Positions 10,796-30,491 of a stretch of DNA of 32,361 nucleotides are shown here, one piece after another; within the stretch, counting starts at the first letter, position 1; each line of letters opens with the position of its first letter. Below the pieces are notes generated by a model. That model searched no databases. It had not been told where the DNA came from and worked only from the letters and a program-made list of their open reading frames with translations. The position numbers and the translations under genes were made by a program. Source of the DNA: Campylobacterales bacterium. GTDB taxonomy: Bacteria > Campylobacterota > Campylobacteria > Campylobacterales > Sulfurimonadaceae. The stretch spans positions 51,715 through 84,075 of the forward strand of contig JAPLGM010000032.1 in NCBI GenBank assembly GCA_026390165.1. The letters are read 5' to 3'.

Positions 10796-12739
10796 TTATG
10801 CACTGCTAATAGCAAATAGATGATAATGTTCCTCTGTATTGTGCTTGGCATAATACATAGCCTCATCCGCACATTTTAATAACACGGATCGCTCAGTACC
10901 GTGGTCTGGGTATATAGCAATACCGATACTAAGCGAAGGATGAATGGTATGTTCTTCTACCTGGATAGGTTGATGTGCTTTGTCCATCAGATGACGGGCG
11001 ATTTTAACGGCTTCGCCGCTATTGGAAATAGTTGCAAGGATTACGACAAACTCATCTCCCCCTAACCGTGCAACCAAATCCTCAGCTCTCACCCCTTCTT
11101 TTAAAGCATTGGCAACTGTTTTAAGTAATAAATCGCCAACATCATGTCCCATCGTATCATTGACCTCTTTAAATCGGTTGAGATCGATAAAAAACAAGGC
11201 AAAATTTTGCTGTCTGTACTGTGCACGCAGGAGCGTCTGATCAAATTTTTGTTCGAAATAGAGACGATTCGGAAGTCCTGTCAATGTGTCGAGATGCGCG
11301 TGATCATACAGCTGCTGTTCATACGCCTTTTGGATACTGATGTCGGTTAGTATGGAGACGTAGCGAATTAACTTCTTATTCTCGTCATACACAGCGGAAA
11401 TACTTTGTAGCGAAGGGTAAATCGTACCGTCTTTGCGTTTGTTCCATATTTCCCCATGCCATGCACCGGTCGCATTGATCTCCTCAAACATCTTTTTGTA
11501 AAACAAGGGATCGTGACGCCCCGATTTAAGAAAACTTGGTGATAGCCCCAATATTTCATCAAGCTCATACCCCGTTACGAGAGTAAATGCGTGATTAGCT
11601 TTGATAATTTTTTTCTTAGCGTCAGTGATAAAAATACCTTCCTGCGAATTCTCAAAAACGACTGAGGAGAGGAGCAACTCGGCTTCTCGTTTTTTGAAAT
11701 TACGTATATCTTCGATACTCAACCATAAATAGGGAATATTTGCCATCGTTACCAATTCGCCTGAGAGGTTAATGGGTATTTGTTCACCATCATTGTTGAT
11801 ATAGCAACTTTCACAGCTGGAGAGCGAACCCGTTTGTATGAGGCTCTTTAGCTTCTCTTTGGCTTCTAGAAGGTATTTTTCAGCAATCAGATCAAGATAA
11901 TTTAACGTTAGGATTTGTTCAAGAGTTCGTCCCACGATTTTTAGAAATGCTTGGTTGGCATCAATAATTTGTCCATCCATGGTGCATAATACCAATCCTG
12001 ATGATGACTTGGAAATAAGCAAACGATTAAATTGACGAGAATCTTCAATCTCACGAACCAGAGGATTGACGAAAAACCAAAAAATAATACTGCCGATTAT
12101 GGCTAAAAACAAGGTAAAAAGGAAGGCATAGGTTGCTGCTTTGATATAGGGGGCTCGAATTTCATCCAGATCTATTTTTGCGACCAATCCCCAGCTAAGA
12201 GTAGGGATGGGTTTGTACGCAGCAAGAACAGTAGCGCCGCGATAGTCCAACAAAACATCAACTCCTGTTTTACCACGAAGCGCTCGGCGCATCGGTTCAC
12301 CATAGGTTGATTTCCAAGGGATGTCCATCTGATTTTTTTCATCAAAATAGCGCTGTTTTAGAATATATCCGATGGAGTCATCATTACGTTGCCCCAGTGT
12401 AAATTCTCCGCTTCTTCCAATGGCTCCGTACTCAGGATATTCGATATTTATCTGCTGGATAAACTTCGCCGCTACAGAGCGCATAAGAAGATTGGAAGGA
12501 TGACCATTATGACCCATAAAAGCTTGACGTGCAACAATATCAATCATAACACTTTGTGTCTCTACCAAATCAAGAAGGCGATTTTTTTGCCTCTCAAGTC
12601 CAATATTGTAGAGTAATCCGATTGATACGCTTGCCACAATCAGCATATTAATGGTGAGCAGTGCAATAAGATAGTAAGGGGTATGTTCAATCTTATGACT
12701 TGCAAAAGAATTGATAAGACATGATTTAATCTTTTTCAT
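10796..12739 (-). CDS. Membrane diguanylate cyclase with extracytoplasmic sensor and two PAS domains
   Basis: Makes cyclic di-GMP from two GTP. 647 residues, in order: a cytoplasmic start, TM1 at about 22-46, a periplasmic Cache-like sensor at 47-200, TM2 at 203-228, PAS 1 at about 235-350, PAS 2 at about 360-480 (with VVFENSQEGIFITDA and HGEIWNKRKDGTIYP), and the GGDEF domain at 485-640. The catalytic signature RLGGDEF is intact (GGDEF at 560-564) and an RxxD product-inhibition site (RAED, 551-554) lies five residues before it. LTGLPNR and FFIDLNRFKEVNDTMGHDVGD complete the domain. No EAL domain is present, so synthesis only. The sensor ligand is unknown. The PDC-like membrane protein follows 26 bases later. 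Confidence 0.92.
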   Translation of the reverse strand: MKKIKSCLINSFASHKIEHTPYYLIALLTINMLIVASVSIGLLYNIGLERQKNRLLDLVETQSVMIDIVARQAFMGHNGHPSNLLMRSVAAKFIQQINIEYPEYGAIGRSGEFTLGQRNDDSIGYILKQRYFDEKNQMDIPWKSTYGEPMRRALRGKTGVDVLLDYRGATVLAAYKPIPTLSWGLVAKIDLDEIRAPYIKAATYAFLFTLFLAIIGSIIFWFFVNPLVREIEDSRQFNRLLISKSSSGLVLCTMDGQIIDANQAFLKIVGRTLEQILTLNYLDLIAEKYLLEAKEKLKSLIQTGSLSSCESCYINNDGEQIPINLSGELVTMANIPYLWLSIEDIRNFKKREAELLLSSVVFENSQEGIFITDAKKKIIKANHAFTLVTGYELDEILGLSPSFLKSGRHDPLFYKKMFEEINATGAWHGEIWNKRKDGTIYPSLQSISAVYDENKKLIRYVSILTDISIQKAYEQQLYDHAHLDTLTGLPNRLYFEQKFDQTLLRAQYRQQNFALFFIDLNRFKEVNDTMGHDVGDLLLKTVANALKEGVRAEDLVARLGGDEFVVILATISNSGEAVKIARHLMDKAHQPIQVEEHTIHPSLSIGIAIYPDHGTERSVLLKCADEAMYYAKHNTEEHYHLFAISSA

Positions 12740-13671: not shown

Positions 13672-14442
13672 TTATCCGATTCCAAAAGATACTTTTTTCA
13701 AATCGACTTCTTCATCGTTGTTAATATCATATATTCCCTCAAAGCTGTAAGGAAACTGTCCATTATGTTCTCCTATGCGAGCACCGGTCGATGTGGTTTC
13801 GGCGTAGTAGTAGTCTTGATTGTCAATTGTGAGTTTAGTACGTAAAAAGGGCAGGGCGCTAGTGTCTTTAATATGTACAACCACAAAGACATGATGTGGG
13901 ACATAAACAAATCGATAATCTATTCCTCTCTCATTCAACAGTGATGCAAACAAATTGGATTTATCATCGCAATCTCCCCAATTGGTTGCAATAACTTCTT
14001 TGGCATTGCGGCTGGTGTGATCGGTTTTATAAGGGATATGGGTGACGTAATCAAACATCTTTTGAATTTCACATCCATCATTGCTATTACACCCCGTAGT
14101 GAGTTGATCGGCAAGAGGTGCGAGTTCCCCATTTCGTGCCAGATTGGTTTTTATGACCATGCCATTGAGCTCAATCACTCCTCTGTCATATAAGCTCACC
14201 AGTTGAGGGGATAGAATGTACGGGCGTAAATCACGTGTTTCGATGAACGTCATAGACATTCCTGCATACATAAATGCGCCCACGGCACTTCCCAAACCGA
14301 TAAAACTCAAGAAACCGGCTTTGCTTTTGGGAGAGGGGGTTTGATTGGATGGCTTGGATGCAGATTTAAGTATTTCACGATAGACATAAACCGCTATGAG
14401 TACAACAAGGGAGATTTTTATCCAAATATCCACACAAACCAT
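13672..14442 (-). CDS. Membrane-anchored transglutaminase-like protein
   Basis: Probable cysteine-peptidase-fold protein of unknown substrate. 256 residues from ATG 14442; a TTG start at 14493 would add 17 residues, and neither has a clear ribosome-binding site. An N-terminal membrane helix (IWIKISLVVLIAVYVY) and a second hydrophobic segment (FLSFIGLGSAVGAFMYAGM) precede a helical linker. The transglutaminase core shows the catalytic Cys in NWGDCDDKSNL (Cys158), the His in VYVPHHVFVVVHI (His183/184), and an acidic third position (AETTS) where the family usually has Asp. Cys118 and Cys124 (GCNSNDGC) may form a disulfide in an extracytoplasmic domain. It lies downstream of the broken primase-helicase on the same strand, 123 bases away, probably a separate transcript. 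Confidence 0.65.
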   Translation of the reverse strand: MVCVDIWIKISLVVLIAVYVYREILKSASKPSNQTPSPKSKAGFLSFIGLGSAVGAFMYAGMSMTFIETRDLRPYILSPQLVSLYDRGVIELNGMVIKTNLARNGELAPLADQLTTGCNSNDGCEIQKMFDYVTHIPYKTDHTSRNAKEVIATNWGDCDDKSNLFASLLNERGIDYRFVYVPHHVFVVVHIKDTSALPFLRTKLTIDNQDYYYAETTSTGARIGEHNGQFPYSFEGIYDINNDEEVDLKKVSFGIG

Positions 14443-14479
14443 CCTAGAAAAATAGGCTAAAATAATAATATCCACAAAG

Positions 14480-14507
14480 GATAGACGTTTCAATCTAAAA
14501 GTCTATC
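14480..14507. repeat. Inverted repeat upstream of the transglutaminase-like gene
   Basis: GATAGAC at 14480-14486 pairs with GTCTATC at 14501-14507 across a 14-base loop. It spans the possible TTG start at 14493, so it could be an operator or a leader hairpin if the real start is the ATG at 14442. It has no T run. Confidence 0.3.
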
Positions 14508-14564: not shown

Positions 14565-15107
14565 TCAGCCGAATAACCCTGTAGAATTTACCGAACTATG
14601 CGGTGCGTTTTCTGTTAAATGGTTCAGGATATACCCCATTTTCTTATACCCTTTAAGCCGTTTAGTGAAACTGCTTTTAAGCAGAGGTACTTCATTATCA
14701 ATAAAATCGATTGCCAGACACTCCTGCCCCTGACGCCCAATACGTCCAAGATATTGAACCATCCGTTCATCATAGGATATTGGCATGGTAAAAATAACCG
14801 TATCCAAATGACCGATATCAATCCCTTCTCCAATGTAACTGCTAGTGGAGAGAATGATCGAGGCTTCGGAGGTTTGAGTGAACTGTTCACGTTTCATCTT
14901 CGTTCCCATCGCTCCATAGAGTAGGAGAGCGTCAATATTCTCAAGCTTGAGATGATGCCATAAACGATTGAGATGTTCGATTCGTTCACTGAGTACTAAC
15001 ACCTTTCGGTGTTTGAGGGTTTTAATCTCATTGATAATCAGTTGATTTCGATCATTGTCTTCACTCAACTCGCCGAGAATCATCGAGAAATGTATGATGC
15101 GCTTCAT
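14565..15107 (-). pseudogene. C-terminal fragment of the broken TOTE-type primase-helicase
   Basis: 180 codons in a different frame from the upstream part, overlapping it by 47 bases. It carries the second RecA-like half of an SF2 helicase: the strand-helix VLVLSERIEHLNRLWHHL, motif V region ILSTSSYIGEGIDIGHLDTVIF and the motif VI stretch MVQYLGRIGRQG. In intact relatives the segment ELSEDNDRNQLI lies well after the DEAH box, beyond motif III (the S/TAT box). Here it follows the DEAH box almost directly, so most of the linker and motif III are gone. The first residues, MKRIIHFSM, are the shifted reading of the DEAH-box region and not a natural start. An active helicase cannot be expected. Confidence 0.75.
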
Positions 15108-16599
15108 CGATAATGATCTGTGAATATTCCTCTATCAGTTGGGGACGGTTTTTGAGAGATTGAAGGGTTGCAATATCTAACGAACCGTTGAGTGACTTTT
15201 TGCCTTTTCCCAATATACCGATAGTTTTACCATCAATAGAAAAGTAGCTCATTAGTCTCTCTTTCCATTGATCGATGAGTGCCGTTTTATTGACTAGAAT
15301 CAGCGTTTTTACGCTTCTTTGTGAGATAATGGCTGAGGCTACCGCTGTTTTTCCAAATCCAGGGGGAGCAATAAGAAGTGCGTAATCGTATTGCATGAGG
15401 GAATTAAAGACATCGATTTGTTGCGGTCGCAGTTCCAATACCAACAGCGGAGTTGCTGTTTTTTCAAGAAGGCGTTTGTCTTGAAGCTCCAGTTTGATTT
15501 TATGTTTCACACCTAATCGGCGCAATGGTTCTAAGAGACCTCTTGGCAGGACAATGTAACGTTCATTGAGATCATAGGTGGAAACAATACGGGGTGTATT
15601 AAATGTAGAGAGACGTTGTTTTTGGCGCATGAAAAACTCAGGGTTATAGAACGATGCCATTCGCTTCAACAGGTTGAGAAACGATTTGCTTAGTCCTTTA
15701 AATTCTACGTAAATGGAATCGTGTAAAACTAATTTTAGCCATTTAGGAGGGGAAAGTTTAACCTTTTCAATTTCCCATGGCATTAATGTTTCTTCGGCTC
15801 CTAAAGATTGTGTATACGTTTGAATCAAAGCACTCAGTCGTGCAGGTGCAATTTTGGAAACACCGTTCAAATAGTGCCATTGATCACTATAGGGTTGAAG
15901 TGTATTGATATCGACGAATACGGTTTTTCCATCATTACGCGAACCGTAGTGCAGTGGCAGAGCAATGAGATTACCCAGTCCATCGTAAGGGACGTAATCT
16001 TGATTGGGGAAAAGGCGATCAAAGCTTTTCATGTCTATACCGTCACTGTGATCCATCGCTTTGGTAATAATAAGGTCACCTAAGATCCGTGCGTCGCGTG
16101 CTCGGACGTTTTGCGAGAATAAAAACCAGATATGTATACCGTTACCCGATTTGGAGATTTCAAACGAAGGGGTTAATCCCATTTCTTTGTATACGGTGCT
16201 AATTGCTCGTGCATCGTTTAAAAAACTCGATTTATCCAAATCGATGGCAAGGAATGAACAAAATGATTGATCTTTTACCGCATAAGTGCCGATACGAACT
16301 TTTCCCTCAAGATGCGATTGGATCACGGCATCGGTTAGTGGAAGATAATCGCTTCCTTGAAAGGTAGCCGTTTTTGGAAAATACCCTTTTTTTAATCCAT
16401 CACCGCTGATCCAGTAGGTAGCATAGACATCTTCTCGACCTACGAAGAGTGATCGGTAGAGGGCGATCTTATCTTCTTTGGTAAGGGCAGAGTGTTTTTC
16501 GAGTTCGCGTTTGATCTGTAAAATATGCGCTTCAATGGAGCGTTTTTGGGTTTCAAGAGAATCGAGTTGTTTTCGTAATCGATCGATATGGTGTTGCAT
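15061..16599 (-). pseudogene. N-terminal part of TOTE-type primase-helicase, frameshifted
   Basis: 512 codons from ATG 16599, which lies two bases past the stop of the ATPase gene. Domain order: a coiled coil at 5-37, an archaeo-eukaryotic primase domain at about 45-265 with the catalytic FLAIDLDKS (Asp120, Asp122) and the SGNGIHIWF histidine (His156), a linker, then the first half of an SF2 helicase with Walker A APPGFGKT (411-418) and IIIDEAHH (495-502). The frame stops ten residues after DEAHH. This arrangement matches the proteins annotated as TOTE conflict system primase-helicases, normally a single chain of about 900 residues. The remaining helicase half is in another frame at 14565-15107. 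The primase half could still fold and be made. The domain assignment is firm; the system's function is not well known. Confidence 0.8.
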
Positions 16600-16601
16600 G
16601 G

Positions 16602-17822
16602 TTAATACAAAAATCCAAAGAGCCAAAGGGGAATTTTATTCTTATACCCTATCTCAATATCATCGGAAGCGACATAGCTTTTAGATAAATCTTTTATTTG
16701 CTTAAATCCTTTGCTTTTTCCCCCTACTTCAAACGTATAGGTGTCATCGACCAAGAAATCTCCTTGCTTTGAGACATAGATTGATTCGTCCAAAAAGCGG
16801 TTTTTTTCTGCGAGAGCATTTTTGATCTGGTTAACGAAAAAGGCCTCACGCATAGAGCCTATATCAACTGAGGAGGTGAGGGCAAATGATAGATTGGTAT
16901 TTTGCATCAAAAGCTTTTCTGGTTTTGAGAGGACGTTATAACCTTTTTCTTTACTTCGAAGTGTATTGATGATTTTTGCTTGTTCGAGATGATTCAGATA
17001 CTCATATACTTTGGGTCTTGAAATCTGGGTCGATTCAGCTAGATTGGTAATATTTGGGATAAATGGGACATTGATAGCTAGGAGATAAAGAAGTTTTTTG
17101 AGCTTTCCAATCTGAGCCATTTCGATACGGTTGATATAGGGTAAATCGGTTTCAAGAATTAGATTGACAACTTGCGTCAGCCGTTGATGAAATCCTTCTT
17201 TATCTTCGAATACAAACGGATAAGCACCATATTCAAGGTACTCTTTGAAATATTTCAACGGTTTGATTTTCTCAGAAATCTTTGTAGCAATCGCAACGTG
17301 GTTTTCCAGTAGGTCTTGTAAGCTTAGTGCCTCATACTCCATGACACCGCTAAGGCTTAAATATTCCCGAAATGATAGATTTTCGAGAGTGTAAATGAGA
17401 CTTCTTCGAGAGAGATCCCCTTTTTGCTTACTGATTTGGAGGATGGAAGAACCTGAAAAGACGATGCGAAGCTCTGAAGCATCATAAATAGATTTGATAT
17501 GCGTTGACCAATCGTTATATTTATGGACTTCGTCGATAAACAATACCTCTCCACCATAACTTTCAAACTCAATAGCAAAGTCATAGAGTGATATCGATTG
17601 AAAATAGGGATTATCGAGTGAAATGTAAAGAGCTTTATCGCTTCCCTCATAATGTTCTTTGATATACTGAAGCATCATTGTTGTTTTCCCTAGACCTCGT
17701 TGACCAAGGATTCCGATAGATTTGGCATCCCAGTTGATTCGGTTATAAAGGTAGCGTTTCTTATCCAACGAGACATTGCGTAGACGTTTGACTTGTTCTT
17801 GGAAAAGAGTTTGTAAACTCAT
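16602..17822 (-). CDS. AAA_14 ATPase with DUF4143 C-terminal domain
   Basis: P-loop ATPase, 406 residues from ATG 17822 (a GTG two codons earlier is too close to the AAAGG ribosome-binding site). Walker A is GQRGLGKTT (40-48), Walker B is VLFIDEVHKY (93-102), and a sensor strand reads IVFSGSSIL. A winged-helix-like middle (NLAESTQISRPKVYEYLNHLEQAKII) and a nuclease-fold-like C-terminal part, with FEVGGKSKG, follow: the usual AAA_14-DUF4143 arrangement. Members are abundant in bacteria and archaea; cellular roles are poorly defined, though some are linked to mobile elements. It lies 40 bases after the recombinase and two bases before the primase-helicase, so all three probably form one transcript. 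Confidence 0.85.
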   Translation of the reverse strand: MSLQTLFQEQVKRLRNVSLDKKRYLYNRINWDAKSIGILGQRGLGKTTMMLQYIKEHYEGSDKALYISLDNPYFQSISLYDFAIEFESYGGEVLFIDEVHKYNDWSTHIKSIYDASELRIVFSGSSILQISKQKGDLSRRSLIYTLENLSFREYLSLSGVMEYEALSLQDLLENHVAIATKISEKIKPLKYFKEYLEYGAYPFVFEDKEGFHQRLTQVVNLILETDLPYINRIEMAQIGKLKKLLYLLAINVPFIPNITNLAESTQISRPKVYEYLNHLEQAKIINTLRSKEKGYNVLSKPEKLLMQNTNLSFALTSSVDIGSMREAFFVNQIKNALAEKNRFLDESIYVSKQGDFLVDDTYTFEVGGKSKGFKQIKDLSKSYVASDDIEIGYKNKIPLWLFGFLY

Positions 17823-17862
17823 ATACACAGCCTTTTTGTAAATATGTAAAGTAAGATTAACA

Positions 17863-18444
17863 TTATTGCTTTAAATTGTCAAGTTTATTTCGATTAAGTG
17901 TATCAATCAACGTCGATCGCTTCACCTCAAACGTACGACACACTGCCGCTTTCGACATACCATTATTTAATGCTTCTAAAATTGCGTCCATTTTTTCTTG
18001 AGGGATAGCTCGCGGCCGTCCACCAATTCGTCCCCGTTTTCGTGCCGCTGCCAACCCTGCACTAACACGCTCCTGTATAAGTGAGCGTTCAAACTGAGCG
18101 AGTGCACCGAAAACATGAAATAATAGTTCACCGGACGGGCTTGAGGTATCCATTCCCTCAGTCAGAGATTTAAATCCGACACCTTTGGATTTAAGCTGTG
18201 AAACAATTTCGATCAAGTGGGGTAGGGAGCGTCCTAATCGATCCAGTTTCCAAACAACGAGTGTGTCACCCTCTTTGACATACTCCAACGCTTGAGCTAG
18301 ACCGACACGATCATCTTTGGAACCCGATGCTTTATCTTCGAAAATATTTCGTTCATCGATACCGGCACTGATCAATGCGTCACGTTGTAAATCGGTACTT
18401 TGTCGATCACCGTCAGTTGATACTCTCATATATCCTATTAGCAT
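17863..18444 (-). CDS. Serine recombinase, resolvase/invertase family
   Basis: Small serine site-specific recombinase, 193 residues from ATG 18444, with TGAGGT about eight bases upstream (a TTG five codons earlier is less likely). The catalytic serine is Ser9 in IGYMRVST; the conserved active-site stretch VVWKLDRLGRS is at 63-73, followed by LTEGMDTSSPSGELLFHVFGALAQFER, split here as SPSGELLF and FGALAQFE. A C-terminal resolvase HTH is at about 145-185 (ALNNGMSKAAVCRTFEV). The length matches Tn3-type resolvases and Gin/Hin invertases. No transposase or invertible segment is visible nearby. A short imperfect repeat just upstream, with ACTAT at 18473-18477 and ATAGT at 18490-18494, is a candidate binding site. 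Confidence 0.9.
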   Translation of the reverse strand: MLIGYMRVSTDGDRQSTDLQRDALISAGIDERNIFEDKASGSKDDRVGLAQALEYVKEGDTLVVWKLDRLGRSLPHLIEIVSQLKSKGVGFKSLTEGMDTSSPSGELLFHVFGALAQFERSLIQERVSAGLAAARKRGRIGGRPRAIPQEKMDAILEALNNGMSKAAVCRTFEVKRSTLIDTLNRNKLDNLKQ

Positions 18445-18636
18445 GTCGGAAAACCTCAAATTTTAGTATTCGACTATTATATCAAAGCGATAGTGTTTTT
18501 TGTATAGATTATTACAAATTTTTAGCGTTTATATGCAGGGTAGAGGGAGTATACGGAAAACACTTGTTTTGCAACCTATTATTCAAATAAATAAATTCAA
18601 AATTTTGATGCCACGGTGTTATATTTTTCATTTTAG

Positions 18637-18887: not shown

Positions 18888-20939
18888 ATGCATACGCATA
18901 CAAAATATATGCCGTATCCATCGGTCACATTGGATAAAAGAGAGTGGGCGGATAAATCTGCCACAGTTGCCCCGCGTTGGGTCAGTACCGATTTACGTGA
19001 TGGCAATCAAGCGTTAGCCAACCCGATGGGAATAGAGCAAAAGATCGCCTATTTCAAAGCGTTGGTTGAATTCGGGTTCAAAGAGATCGAGGTTGCCTAT
19101 CCCAGCGCGTCACAAACGGAGTTTGATTTTTGCCGTCGATTGATTGACGAAGGGATGGTTCCTGAGGATGTCACTATTGGAGTGCTTGTCCCCTCGATAG
19201 AGCGTCATATCGTCCGCAGTTTTGAAGCATTGAATGGAGCCAAGCGGATTACCATGCACTTGTACAATCCGACCGCCACCAATCAACGCAGTGTCGTGTT
19301 CCGCCGAAGCCGTGAGCAGATCATCGCGTTGGCGTTAGAGGGTGTGGCGTGCATCAAACGCGAAGCACAGCGCTTTGGTGGAGAAGTAGTATTTGAGTAT
19401 TCGCCGGAGAGCTTTTCGCAGACCGAGTTGGATTTTGCCCGTGATATCTCCAATGCTGTGATCACAGCGTGGGAACCGACACAGGAATATCCGATGATTT
19501 TGAACCTTCCCAATACGTTGGAAGCGTGTTCACCCAACATCTATGCCGATCGTATCGAGTGGATGTCTAAACACATCAAAAACCGTGAGAGCGTCATCAT
19601 CAGCGTTCATCCGCATAATGACCGAGGATGCGCGGTAGCGAGTGCGGAGTTGGCGGTATTGGCAGGTGCTCAGAGAGTGGAGGGGACGATCCTCGGCAAC
19701 GGTGAGAGGGCAGGTAATGTCGATTTGATCACGTTGGCGTTCAACTATTTTTCGCAGGGGATCGATCCGTGTTTGAGAGTAGACAAAGTCGATGAGATCT
19801 TGAGTCGTATTACGAGCATCACAGGTATGCGCGTCGCCGAGCGTCATCCGTATGTTGGTTCTATGATCTACACGGCATTTTCAGGTACTCACCAAGACGC
19901 GATCAAAAAGGGGATGGAACATCACCGAGAGCAAAACAGCCCCACATGGGAAGTGCCTTATTTGGCGATCGATCCGCGTGACATCGGCAGAGAGTACAAA
20001 GACTCGATCCGTATCAACTCCCAATCGGGCAAAGGGGGCGTGGCGTATGTCTTAAAAGAGATCTACGGTATCGAAGTCCCCAACGAGATGCAGACGAAGC
20101 TTGCCGACGAGGTAAAACGGATTTCGCAAAAACGAGGCGGTGAAATCAGCAGTGACGAGGTGCTTGGGATATATCAGGGGATGATGAAGCGTCATGAAAA
20201 CAGCTGGAACGCCTCAGAGTACAACAAACATGCCGCATTTGTCTCGAATTTGGCATTGCCCGTTGTCGATTTGCTTGCTCCGATAGAGGGAGAGGAAATC
20301 TTAGATTTAGGATGCGGTGAGGGGACATTGGCACTTGAAATCCAAAAAAGCGGTGCGAGAGTAACGGGAGTCGATTTGAGTCACGAGATGGTAAAAAATG
20401 CACGTGCCAAAGGGATCGATGCTATGGTTATGAGCGTGACGGAGTTGGAGTTTAAAAACCGATTTGATGCGGTCTTTTCCAATGCGGTGCTTCACTGGGT
20501 AAAAGAGAGTGAAACCGCCGTTAGAAACATTTATGAAGCATTGAAGCCTAATGGGAGATTTGTCGCAGAGTTTGGAGGGTCAGGTAATTGTAAAACAGCC
20601 GTAGATGCGATGAAAGCAGTGTTTAAAAATCACCCTGAATTTGGAGCGTTTGAAGACCCTTGGTACTTTCCGAGTGTCGAAGAGTATCGTGCCCTCTTGG
20701 AGTCGTGCGGTTTTAGAGTAGAATATATCGAATTAATCCCGAGACCAACCCCAGTGGATGATATCGCCAACTGGCTTGATCTTTTTGCCAACGGTGTAAC
20801 GGCTCATTTCAGTCGTGAAGAGTTTAGTGTGTTTAAAGAGGAAGTTAGTAGGATTACGAAACCGAAGTTGTACGATGAAAACGACGGTTGGCATGTTGAT
20901 TATGTACGTTTGAGAGTTAGAGCGGTAAAAGAGGTATGA
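18888..20939 (+). CDS. leuA: 2-isopropylmalate synthase catalytic region fused to a SAM-dependent methyltransferase
   Basis: First step of leucine synthesis: acetyl-CoA plus 2-oxoisovalerate to 2-isopropylmalate. 683 residues; ATG 18888 has AAGGA seven bases upstream. Residues 1-431 match the longer (type 2) LeuA: STDLRDGNQ (33-41), HPHNDRG (from His241, metal ligands), GNGERAGNVDL, and the linker up to SSDEVLGIYQG. The C-terminal LeuA dimerisation/leucine-binding domain expected next is missing. At Met432-Met433 (20181-20186) the frame continues into a class I methyltransferase, with EILDLGCGEGTLALE (motif I at 472-479), VTGVDLS, and FSNAVLHWV, resembling trans-aconitate methyltransferase. 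The fusion is uninterrupted. Loss of the regulatory domain suggests insensitivity to leucine feedback; control may rest on the leader. An internal start at 20184 could also release the methyltransferase. LeuA assignment is firm, methyl acceptor unknown. Confidence 0.88.
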   Translation: MHTHTKYMPYPSVTLDKREWADKSATVAPRWVSTDLRDGNQALANPMGIEQKIAYFKALVEFGFKEIEVAYPSASQTEFDFCRRLIDEGMVPEDVTIGVLVPSIERHIVRSFEALNGAKRITMHLYNPTATNQRSVVFRRSREQIIALALEGVACIKREAQRFGGEVVFEYSPESFSQTELDFARDISNAVITAWEPTQEYPMILNLPNTLEACSPNIYADRIEWMSKHIKNRESVIISVHPHNDRGCAVASAELAVLAGAQRVEGTILGNGERAGNVDLITLAFNYFSQGIDPCLRVDKVDEILSRITSITGMRVAERHPYVGSMIYTAFSGTHQDAIKKGMEHHREQNSPTWEVPYLAIDPRDIGREYKDSIRINSQSGKGGVAYVLKEIYGIEVPNEMQTKLADEVKRISQKRGGEISSDEVLGIYQGMMKRHENSWNASEYNKHAAFVSNLALPVVDLLAPIEGEEILDLGCGEGTLALEIQKSGARVTGVDLSHEMVKNARAKGIDAMVMSVTELEFKNRFDAVFSNAVLHWVKESETAVRNIYEALKPNGRFVAEFGGSGNCKTAVDAMKAVFKNHPEFGAFEDPWYFPSVEEYRALLESCGFRVEYIELIPRPTPVDDIANWLDLFANGVTAHFSREEFSVFKEEVSRITKPKLYDENDGWHVDYVRLRVRAVKEV

Positions 20940-20964: not shown

Positions 20965-21027
20965 ACTCCCAAGCTCCAGCTTGGGAGTGTATATGTTAGT
21001 CTGCATTCCCAACGAGGACGTTGGGAA
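20965..21027. repeat. Two REP-like palindromes
   Basis: Palindrome 1: ACTCCCAAGCT at 20965-20975 with AGCTTGGGAGT at 20978-20988 (11 bp, two-base centre). Palindrome 2: TTCCCAACG at 21006-21014 with CGTTGGGAA at 21019-21027 (9 bp, loop AGGA), followed by CGAGGG. Both resemble the widespread family of short GGGAAC-type bacterial palindromes. They lie 25 bases after the leuA stop; palindrome 2 lies inside the 3' end of the HEPN gene. Confidence 0.65.
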
Positions 21028-21706
21028 CGAGGGATGATGCACTTTCTTGTTTATAAATCTTATCATTAATGAATTTATTTCCCATTAAAATCACTTCTTC
21101 GAGAAATTTTTCAACATCAGCTATATATTCTTCTAGCCTGGGGATTACAAGGTCTCTTCCAAATTCTTCAAAGGATTTGTTACCATGAGCTAGCGTGTTT
21201 CTTCCATCTTTAATTGCTTTCAACTTTTCTCCAAAGGATTCAGATATCACAATTCCATATTTTTTCATGACACTGCGAATTGATCGTGCATCAAGATTTC
21301 CACTATATAGTTGATAACTCTCTATCATTTCTGAATATGGAACATTAAACGTTCCTGTACCACGCAAAAGATCGACAGTATGATGTAATACATCTATCGA
21401 GTTATGAATATCAGCTCGTTTTTCCTTATGCTTGTAAAAATATATTAATGCAAGATCTTTAATAGATCTGGAAAGATCATCGTAAAGAACATTGTTTGCA
21501 TTGATCTCTGCATGTAATTTAGTCAATGTTTGAGTTATTGTTGATTCGATAATATTATAAAGATTTATAATAACACTTGAACGGAGAACAGGAATATTTA
21601 TTTGATTAGGGGATGTTACATTTCCATCCTCTATGTCTTTGATTAGTTTGATGAGGCCTGTAGCCTCAAACATCCTTAACTTAAAATCTTGCTCAACAGA
21701 ATACAT
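20996..21706 (-). CDS. HEPN-type nuclease-like protein (MAE_28990/MAE_18760 family)
   Basis: Probable toxin-like RNase partner of the DUF262 protein. 236 residues, helical. The HEPN signature Rx4-6H is RNTLAH at Arg169-His174, within DGRNTLAHGNKSFEEFG, which is characteristic of this family; an N-terminal stretch (SSVIINLYNIIEST) matches its first helix pair. Start ATG is 3 bases after the DUF262 stop, with AAGGAA inside the end of that gene, so the pair is translationally linked. The last 16 residues (ESASSLVPNVLVGNAD) are encoded by a REP-like palindrome and probably are not part of the native protein. RNase activity is inferred from the motif; the target is unknown. Confidence 0.75.
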   Translation of the reverse strand: MYSVEQDFKLRMFEATGLIKLIKDIEDGNVTSPNQINIPVLRSSVIINLYNIIESTITQTLTKLHAEINANNVLYDDLSRSIKDLALIYFYKHKEKRADIHNSIDVLHHTVDLLRGTGTFNVPYSEMIESYQLYSGNLDARSIRSVMKKYGIVISESFGEKLKAIKDGRNTLAHGNKSFEEFGRDLVIPRLEEYIADVEKFLEEVILMGNKFINDKIYKQESASSLVPNVLVGNAD

Positions 21707-21709
21707 TGA

Positions 21710-22849
21710 TTATTTCCTTACCAACATATCTCTAATATAGTTGATTCTCCCAGCCAATTTTTGCTGTTTATGGGATTGATTTGCCACATGAGTATTCTTT
21801 TTAAACTCGGGGTCGATCAGATTCTTGTATATTTCTTCTTTGTTATAATTTTCGAAATTCAAGTTTGATCCAAGCTCCATTATTGCCATGTATATACCGA
21901 TGGAAATTGCCTCAAATACAGACCTTTTAGTTTGAGGGTTTTCCCTGTGTCTATACCCATATGGAAAAATATTTTTGACTACATTATTAACACTATCAAT
22001 TTGATTTTTGTATTCGGATAGCTTTTTTTCGAGCTTCTCAGGATTTAGCAAAGAAAGCTCTTTATTCTTGTTATCTAGATAGTTATCAAGAAAATCAGCC
22101 AAGCTTCCAGATATTCCGCTTTGATATTTTTTACTTTCAGAAAGTGCAAAAAATCGCAATAAAAGCTCTTGCTTTTCTTGTCTCTTTTCAAGCCACTTAT
22201 CTACTTCAACCAATTCAGAAAAGCTTTTACTAGTTTCTACATAGTCATAGATAAATTTAGTAAACGGTCCCGTATATATACCCTTTCTCTTCTCCATAGG
22301 CTTCAATAGATCGCTGCCTCGGTTAATTCGCTCAAACATATCTTTTTTAATATCATCAGTTGTTTCTTCAGACAAAATAATAAATCTAAGAGCGGTATCT
22401 AAAAACTTACCTTTCCTACTACTTTCTAGATCATTAAAAGTGATTCCATTTGCATTCGTTAAAGACTCAAGTCCCGTTAGTACCAAGCTGTTTTCTATGA
22501 AAGCATGAATGGCGCGGACTCGCTGTGAACCGTCGACGATCTCCCAAGCACCATCACCATTTTCTGCAACAAAAATAAAAGGAATTGGCAAGCCTAATAA
22601 AATCGACTCAATAAGTTTAGAGGATCTCTTTTCGTCCCAAGTGAATTCTCTTTGATATTCCGGAACAAACAAGATATTTCTCTTTATGTTTGTATTTTTT
22701 CTTTCCTCTTCATCTGTATCTGAATATTCAATTCCATCTGTATACTTATCTGATATATATTCAACAGTCAAATCTCGCATGTCATAGCGAACGTCTCTGC
22801 GTTTAATATATATTTGCTCTTCTAAAGTTTTTGAATCAATGGTACTCAT
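21710..22849 (-). CDS. DUF262 (GmrS/ParB-like NTPase-nuclease) domain protein
   Basis: 379 residues from ATG 22849, with TAGGAGTT upstream. The DUF262 core is PEYQREFTWDEKRSSKLIES (63-82) and WEIVDGSQRVRAIHAF (102-117), with the family DGxQR at 106-110. Proteins of this kind are found in GmrSD type IV restriction and other conflict systems, where the ParB-like fold binds or cuts nucleic acid using NTP. There is no C-terminal DUF1524 HNH domain here; the C-terminal half is a long helical region. The following gene encodes a HEPN-type protein, so the effector may be the HEPN partner. The pair sits among accessory genes and is visibly AT-rich, suggesting transfer. Biological role is inferred. 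Confidence 0.8.
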   Translation of the reverse strand: MSTIDSKTLEEQIYIKRRDVRYDMRDLTVEYISDKYTDGIEYSDTDEEERKNTNIKRNILFVPEYQREFTWDEKRSSKLIESILLGLPIPFIFVAENGDGAWEIVDGSQRVRAIHAFIENSLVLTGLESLTNANGITFNDLESSRKGKFLDTALRFIILSEETTDDIKKDMFERINRGSDLLKPMEKRKGIYTGPFTKFIYDYVETSKSFSELVEVDKWLEKRQEKQELLLRFFALSESKKYQSGISGSLADFLDNYLDNKNKELSLLNPEKLEKKLSEYKNQIDSVNNVVKNIFPYGYRHRENPQTKRSVFEAISIGIYMAIMELGSNLNFENYNKEEIYKNLIDPEFKKNTHVANQSHKQQKLAGRINYIRDMLVRK

Positions 22850-28562: not shown

Positions 28563-30491
28563 TTAGCACTTTTCCATTTTGTTAATAATATTTTCAACTA
28601 AATAAGTCTTGAACTGAGTTAGTAGAAAATTGTTTAATTTTTTCTTATCTGAAGTTTGCAGATATGTATCTAAATTAGTTTTTATATCTTTCCAAAAATT
28701 TAATTCATCAGTTAAATAACAATAAAATAATTTATTATTTAAATATTTATTATCACTATATCTTGAATGTAATATTTCACCTAATCTTGAAATATTTTTA
28801 TTTTCAATTGTTGTCAATAGTTTTGTAAAATTAGCAGGATTCAAACGACTTAGTATTGGAGTTGATTCAAAATCTTTTAGCAAAAAATGTATTAAAAATT
28901 TTTCATCTAGCTGTTTTATTGATTCTAAAAAATTATTTAATGATTGCTGTTGTTTGTCAATTTCTTCTATTTCATAAATGCTTTTATTTTTTTCTATAAT
29001 TTTTAAAAAAATGTCTCTAAAATCTTGATCATCTTCACCCATATAACCTAATCCGGTTGCATTAAATCTTATGCTAGATTCAAAAAGGTTATTTTTCCAA
29101 TTTTGATGATTTTGATATTTATCAGTAATACAAGTTTCAACCTGTTTTTTAATGTCTTCTACTGTAAGCGAACATAGTTGATTTTTACTAAAAAATATAA
29201 GTAATGCAATGACATGAATAAAATGTTCAGGAATATCGTATTCGCAATTTTTAAATTTATTAAGTACATCATGAAGGTTTTTAGTAAAATCTTCATCTGA
29301 TAACTGTCTATAATGCCATATCTTAACCCAAGATGGTTGCTTATTTTCTTTTTTTTCTAAAAAGAAAGACAAGTTACTTATTAATTCATTTAATTCTTCT
29401 TGTTGAATTGAGTTATCTAAAAGAATCTTAATCCAATTTTTTCCATCAAATAAAGGATTGTTTTTAATATTGTATTTTTCATACACTTTTTCAATATTTG
29501 TTTTTTCTTTATTTTTATTGTCTGAAAAATCCCATAATATTGTAGGTCTTTCTGATAATTCTTCTCTTGTCAAATTTGCACTTTTTAACTCAATTGAAAT
29601 TGCAAAAAAATTATTTATCAAAATTGGAACAAATTCTTCATGCTTCAAATACTCTTCATCAATATTTTTAGTAAAATATTCAAAATCGAATAATATTTGA
29701 GAAATATGTCTTAAATTATTATAGTTTGCTTTTTCATAATTATCTTTTATGATTTGTATATTTATATTTAATATTTTTTTTGATAGATTAGTTTTACTGT
29801 CTATAAAAGAAGCTAATATATGTTCAAAAGAATGTTTAACTTCAAAGGTTTTACCAATGACTTTTTCTTTAAACTCTTTATATTCAGTATTAATTATTTT
29901 TTCTTCATTTGCTAATATTATGACTTTGAAATTTGATTGTTCTACTAAATAGTTTATGTACCCTAATACTTCTTTTAAATTTATTTCTGTTCTTTCCAAG
30001 TCATCAAAAATAAATACTATTTCTTGTTTTGAGTTTTTATTTTCAGAAAAAAAATCTAATGGATTAAACGTTTTTAAATCAATATTTGCTGTTCCATCTT
30101 TATTACCATCTTGATTCCAATCAAGATTGACACCTAGTTTGAGTGCACCTTTTAGTATATTACCAGCGAGTTTTGCATACTTAGAACCTAATAATGGATG
30201 TAAATTTTGGAAAATTTCTTCATCTATTGAATTGGTATTTTTTAGCCCAAAAAGACTTATTTTTATAAATTTAATAGTGTCATTTTTAAATTCATCGATA
30301 AAATTTTCTATAAAATATGTTTTACCACTTCCCCATTTCCCACTCAGTAAAATGGCATATTCAGGGTTTGAAAGTATTAAATAATTAGATAAATATTCTT
30401 TGATGTGGTTATTTGGACTAATAATGTTTTTTTCTGCATTCATTTTTGTACCTGCTATTTTATATAATAAAGATTTTAACTTTTTAATCAT
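28563..30491 (-). CDS. KAP-type P-loop NTPase
   Basis: 642 residues. An N-terminal region with no clear membrane helix precedes Walker A GKWGSGKT (51-58) and Walker B EIVFIFDDLERTE (157-169), the latter typical of KAP NTPases. A long helical C-terminal region follows with no recognised domain. KAP proteins are often part of anti-phage or membrane-associated conflict systems. The gene is far more AT-rich than its neighbours, with many AAT/AAA/ATT codons, suggesting recent transfer. AGGTGA lies about 13 bases before the ATG, a longer spacing than usual. It has no partner on the same strand nearby; a stand-alone defence role is an inference. Confidence 0.8.
   Translation of the reverse strand: MIKKLKSLLYKIAGTKMNAEKNIISPNNHIKEYLSNYLILSNPEYAILLSGKWGSGKTYFIENFIDEFKNDTIKFIKISLFGLKNTNSIDEEIFQNLHPLLGSKYAKLAGNILKGALKLGVNLDWNQDGNKDGTANIDLKTFNPLDFFSENKNSKQEIVFIFDDLERTEINLKEVLGYINYLVEQSNFKVIILANEEKIINTEYKEFKEKVIGKTFEVKHSFEHILASFIDSKTNLSKKILNINIQIIKDNYEKANYNNLRHISQILFDFEYFTKNIDEEYLKHEEFVPILINNFFAISIELKSANLTREELSERPTILWDFSDNKNKEKTNIEKVYEKYNIKNNPLFDGKNWIKILLDNSIQQEELNELISNLSFFLEKKENKQPSWVKIWHYRQLSDEDFTKNLHDVLNKFKNCEYDIPEHFIHVIALLIFFSKNQLCSLTVEDIKKQVETCITDKYQNHQNWKNNLFESSIRFNATGLGYMGEDDQDFRDIFLKIIEKNKSIYEIEEIDKQQQSLNNFLESIKQLDEKFLIHFLLKDFESTPILSRLNPANFTKLLTTIENKNISRLGEILHSRYSDNKYLNNKLFYCYLTDELNFWKDIKTNLDTYLQTSDKKKLNNFLLTQFKTYLVENIINKMEKC

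Follow-up and report, generated by a model that had tools for sequence, protein, structure and literature searches.

A 203-bp deletion has very probably inactivated an accessory AEP-TOTE primase-helicase gene in a Campylobacterales bacterium

The stretch of DNA analyzed here (the window; 32,361 nucleotides of contig JAPLGM010000032.1 of a Campylobacterales bacterium) carries two overlapping open reading frames, ORF A and ORF B, that hold the two parts of a primase-helicase (Table 1). ORF A contains the primase and the RecA1 domain through DEAHH, followed by ten out-of-frame residues (TFLDDSRRVE) and a stop at 15061. In Pfam searches it matched AEP-TOTE (5.6e-71), with a bit score far above the curated cut-off of 27 that places it in this family, as well as ResIII (3.9e-15) and DEAD. 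Although ORF A was listed from a TTG at 16626, its true start is probably the ATG at 16599, just past the stop of the AAA_14 gene at 16602. ORF B matched Helicase_C (4.8e-13), and its homology to relatives begins at 15092. The two frames overlap by 47 bases (15061-15107). The neighbors of the primase-helicase identified with Pfam are the AAA_14 ATPase and a transglutaminase-like gene. Since the primase-helicase starts just after the AAA_14 stop, the two genes probably form one operon.

Table 1 Features of the primase-helicase locus, in window coordinates
Feature	Position	Strand	Basis
ORF A, N-terminal fragment, 512 aa	15061..16599	-	ORF list, Pfam, motif placement
AEP-TOTE primase domain	15832..16473	-	Pfam PF22548, 239.2 bits
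Primase motif AIDLDK	16231-16248	-	Our own assignment, following the passages of PMC5862659 that describe AEP primase motifs
Primase motif SGNGIHIW	16126-16149	-	As for AIDLDK
Primase motif YVPYDGLG	15973-15996	-	As for AIDLDK
Helicase motif I (Walker A), PPGFGKTA	15343..15366	-	Aligned with XPB-II
Helicase motif II, DEAHH	15094..15108	-	Motif placement
Deletion junction, 203 bp absent relative to both same-genus copies	15092..15093	-	Aligned DNA and landmarks
ORF B, C-terminal fragment, 180 aa, open from ATG 15107	14565..15107	-	ORF list, Pfam
Helicase_C domain of ORF B	14727-15047	-	Pfam
AAA_14/DUF4143 ATPase directly upstream, intact (start GTG 17828 or ATG 17822)	16602..17828	-	Pfam

A search of 41 genomes of the genus found the gene in three, including that of the window, and both other copies (L002 and L003) are single frames, of 737 and 740 aa. 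L002 has lost the first codons of its gene, with an IstB-like gene (named by eye) adjoining the replaced 5' end, and L003 begins at a contig edge, so only the downstream stretch was compared. Sized by alignment to these intact primase-helicases, as the original prediction had suggested, the distance from DEAHH to HFSMILG is exactly 204 nt (68 codons) in both same-genus copies and 1 nt in the window. The net loss is therefore 203 bp at the junction 15093/15092, and because 203 bp is 67 codons plus two bases, the frame shifts. The gap was also seen in the aligned DNA of the window and its same-genus relatives. In intact relatives, HFSMILGELSED stands 68 codons past DEAHH, beyond motif III (LSATPKRKDG). 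With one nucleotide left between DEAHH and HFSMILG, the split cannot be the result of a one-base indel. These results bear out the original prediction of an N-terminal frame ending ten residues past DEAHH, a downstream frame resuming beyond motif III, a 47-base overlap that no simple one-base indel would produce, and an event that removed a few hundred bases and shifted the frame. The primase half and the other helicase motifs were indeed left in place, with readable motifs and Pfam matches in both ORFs.

The accompanying suggestion that short direct repeats at the junction could have caused the deletion did not hold, as none explains it. ATCAT is present on either side of it, yet an exchange between the two copies would remove 207 bases, in frame, rather than 203. 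No base is shared across the break as judged from two relatives, from which the ancestor of the window may have differed.

The genome is a draft of 32 contigs, and it is conceivable that the strain's gene is intact and that the contig dropped the 203 bp. However, the flanks contain no cross-junction repeat that could have led an assembler to leave these bases out, and the gene is single-copy, which makes such an artefact very unlikely. No second AEP-TOTE domain was found in the genome, and thus no other copy covers the loss.

With the deletion, the window copy lost motif III, the final core strand of RecA1, and the stretch that links RecA1 to RecA2. The missing segment contains VVGLSATPKRKDG, which in the intact relative L003 aligned with the XPB-II motif III. 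Nine residues of the segment (A494, F497, G511, L512, T515, R518, D520, G521, and G531 in L063 numbering) do not vary among 28 relatives, which come from several phyla. The L063 relative was modeled with AlphaFold (mean pLDDT 83.8, pTM 0.70); in this model, the deleted segment corresponds to residues 492-559 and comprises a helix (494-501), a RecA1 strand (508-513), and a second helix (523-530), followed by strands 533-536 and 545-552 that lead to RecA2. It is well established that an SF2 helicase without the motif III segment cannot unwind. The window copy does not hold motifs I to VI of a complete SF2 helicase in one frame, and the absence of motif III together with the shifted frame led us to file it as a pseudogene of the AEP-TOTE primase-helicase family.

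The 47-base overlap and the in-frame starts of ORF B (ATG 15107, ATG 15083, and TTG 15068) would be compatible with two functional proteins, or a fusion made by frameshifting, that act as a working split helicase. However, motif III and the nine invariant residues are in neither frame, so even a perfect fusion would lack both, and no examined relative shares the split. In addition, neither ATG of ORF B is preceded by a sequence resembling a ribosome site (pairing scores of +0.4 and +1.7 against a background mean of -1.08, sd 2.42), a weak test given that likely real starts of the operon score only -3.4 and -3.1. We therefore regard a split helicase as extremely improbable.

Searches at higher taxonomic ranks placed the split in context. 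Among 200 genomes of the family, 14 matched, including that of the window. In ten of the 13 others, a single frame covers 717 or more query residues; of the remaining three, G065 has a fragment where a contig starts, G129 has a copy that runs off the end of its contig, and G188 has a copy with undetermined bases. In the phylum search, in which two candidates per genome were scored, 47 of 397 genomes matched in 52 rows; in 42 of these, the match exceeds 700 query residues and the open frame is at least 704 aa long. A stop was listed inside the match in many of these full-span rows; since the open frames are full-length, we took these stops to lie past the C-terminus. The other ten rows are the two halves of the window copy, a plasmid copy with a frameshift (G486:C2), two partial matches in G238, matches without the N-terminal part in G482, G515, and G323, and two fragments in G509. 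A split at the same place was absent from the genus, the ten full-span family copies, and the 42 full-span phylum rows. Thus, none of the full-span family or phylum copies has the split as two conserved genes, a pattern that would have spoken against the original prediction.

Some other copies are also broken or truncated, each at a place of its own, and the primase-helicase has probably been lost several times. In L056 (2857-4152, 431 aa, and 1955-2854), the frame shifts within a run of A that follows Walker A. L057 lacks its N-terminal part, the 5' end of L002 is replaced as described above, and L027 is a fragment located where its contig starts. Two further copies are incomplete in their assemblies, L025 through undetermined bases within the gene and L026 through the end of its contig. 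At least 576 stretches in genome_contigs encode AEP-TOTE primase-helicases; a stop lies inside the matched range in seven of the best-scoring 80 of these 576 loci, a sample that favors intact copies and gives no broken fraction. In viral_contigs, the junction sequence had no matches and an alignment search found no relative, and phage records gave only partial matches, with 0 of 148 covering 80%.

Changes on each branch were counted with polarization by three copies (window, L002, and L003). The synonymous/non-synonymous counts in regions A and B were 38/19 and 30/14 on the window branch, 59/23 and 30/23 on the L002 branch, and 101/35 and 34/9 on the L003 branch. The window branch (68/33) thus showed no excess of amino-acid changes over the branches of its two relatives (224/90; Fisher p 0.45), and the share of it spent without constraint was 3% by maximum likelihood, with a 95% upper limit of 13% (neutral ratio 2.9). 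No further stop or frameshift was found inside either fragment. Given the lack of both further lesions and excess amino-acid changes, the deletion is recent. It should be noted that the absence of decay shows recency only, and that continued function of both pieces would fit it too. A tree of 19 copies pairs the window with L063 (the L002 contig) and then with L003, so that a single loss in the lineage of the window suffices. Among all three copies, dS was 0.43-0.87 in region A and 1.9-2.3 in region B, and the lower dS in the first part of the gene than in the last hints at recombination within the gene.

Undiminished constraint in ORF A, with its intact primase domain and motifs, could also mean that the truncated 512-aa protein works as a helicase-less primase with its AAA_14 neighbor, and L056 is a second truncated copy that keeps the primase half. 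However, constraint is equally undiminished in ORF B, as expected from simple recency, and the two halves go together in full-span copies. Furthermore, L056 was truncated by a frameshift within a run of A, and the gene of its near relative L030 is intact. We consider a functional primase fragment to be marginally less probable even than the assembly artefact.

Very likely, then, an accessory primase-helicase gene has recently suffered a loss-of-function mutation here, and the breakage is an ordinary pseudogene event. The intact gene encodes a protein of ~740 aa in which an N-terminal helix is followed by an AEP primase domain and an XPB-like superfamily 2 helicase. Loss of 203 bp in the lineage of the window removed motif III together with the remainder of RecA1 and the RecA2 linker, and translation in the shifted frame ends ten residues on. 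Our best guess is that the transcript would give at most a 512-aa protein, consisting of the primase domain and one half of the helicase, and that ORF B would stay untranslated; the broken products are presumably inactive. The remains probably persist since little time has passed; the partner gene upstream, a gene that is also found alone, is unharmed.

The window gene shares its domain order (PF22548 plus an SF2 helicase) and the length of its relatives with AEP-TOTE primase-helicases such as the Arcobacter plasmid 'DEAD/DEAH box helicase family proteins'; six Arcobacter/Aliarcobacter plasmid copies (H1-H6) show 55-57% identity to ORF A. It differs in being broken at a place where the relatives compared over this segment are unbroken. 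The label 'TOTE-type' in the original prediction is apt as a Pfam domain name, supported by 239.2 bits, but not as a TOTE conflict system, for which the part of PMC12458937 that explains the name gives TPR, OB, TBP, and Effector. The window gene carries a Pfam domain named after these systems, but a search for TBP (PF00352) gave no match in the whole genome, while the same search was positive in four of 14 control genomes, all archaeal. The adjacent genes encode the AAA_14 ATPase and the transglutaminase-like protein instead, and Pfam found no TPR or OB family in the closest two genes to either side (13672-14493, 10796-12739, 16602-17828, and 17863-18459). A TOTE conflict system was therefore rejected, and annotations should treat the locus as a single broken gene rather than as two proteins or a TOTE conflict system.

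Two other known groups resemble parts of the gene. CRISPR-associated primase-polymerases have a related AEP domain (PADLOC PDLC01465, 3.7e-72; PDB 7nqd, which we take to be such an enzyme, 5.7e-11 for the intact relative L003), but the primase of the window type is fused to an SF2 helicase. No cas genes, Cas1 and Cas2 included, were found among nine proteins scanned with PADLOC (eight of them from the window), with the lone exception of a marginal CasR-profile match of the AAA_14 protein (9.9e-4). The RecA1 region of L003, including motif III, aligned with XPB-II DNA helicases (PDB 6p4f and 5tnu) at 1.2e-24; however, this match lacks the primase domain, and the window copy has lost motif III.

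In the close subfamily, a partner gene of one of four kinds lies directly upstream on the same strand in 15 of the 17 readable loci. The partner is AAA_14/DUF4143 in the window, L021, L023, and L029; AbiEi with AbiEii in L020, L022, L024, L025, L030, L031, and L056; zeta-like in L008, L019, and L026; and RelB with YafQ in L018. L064 and L067 have none of these. The upstream side is cut or replaced in L002, L003/L028, L027, and L057, which were left out of the 17. Pfam was run on representative partners only, with L029, L030, and L031 assigned by eye, and gave 113 bits for AbiEii, 93 for YafQ, 60.8 for RelB, and 41.8 for zeta in L008, together with AAA_14 matches in L021 and L023; AbiEi (22.0, cut-off 25) and the L019 zeta (19.9, cut-off 22.3) scored below their cut-offs. 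The zeta-like gene of L019 is split over two frames, the partner gap is ~200 bases in L019 and L026, and L025 has a 101-aa ORF between partner and primase-helicase.

On the tree, the seven partner labels need eight changes (six being the least possible), and AAA_14 needs four changes for its four rows, which points to the exchange of partners along the tree. The labels are also clustered, only one of 200 shuffles being as low. An AAA_14 gene without the primase-helicase was found in L055, where homology stops at the primase-helicase start and the contig ends ~200 bases later. Among the best-scoring 80 of the 576 genome_contigs loci, 41 have a same-strand ORF within 150 bases upstream, these ORFs being of mixed kinds, many doubtful, and uncounted by partner type. 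A narrow literature search found no paper on a link between the primase-helicase and such partners.

Intact relatives are common, and their association with toxin-antitoxin or AAA_14 partners that vary between loci suggests a mobile, defense-like cassette to which the primase-helicase belongs. A more specific and tentative reading, which we hold to be rather doubtful, is that in Campylobacterota the primase-helicase is the last gene of a cassette with an exchangeable first gene (AbiE toxin-antitoxin, zeta-like kinase, RelB/YafQ, or AAA_14/DUF4143 ATPase), and that the partner retains the cassette in the genome, so the helicase can be lost time and again while the cassette stays, as in the window. 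If this were true, the AAA_14/DUF4143 ATPases might function as addiction-like or defense modules in their own right.

Several other genes in the window stood out. A serine resolvase gene (17863-18459), whose close relatives sit at several positions in further genomes of the genus, possibly marks mobility of the stretch. A single ORF at 18888-20939 combines an HMGL-like/isopropylmalate-synthase-type part with a methyltransferase domain (Pfam), and its DNA occurs at ~88-90% identity in several genomes of the genus. At 20996-22849, a HEPN-family gene lies beside a GmrSD_N/NsnA-like gene (Pfam, PADLOC), and the two form a probable defense pair. Finally, the gene at 28563-30491 strongly matched the PADLOC candidate defense family PDC-S49 (3.3e-148).
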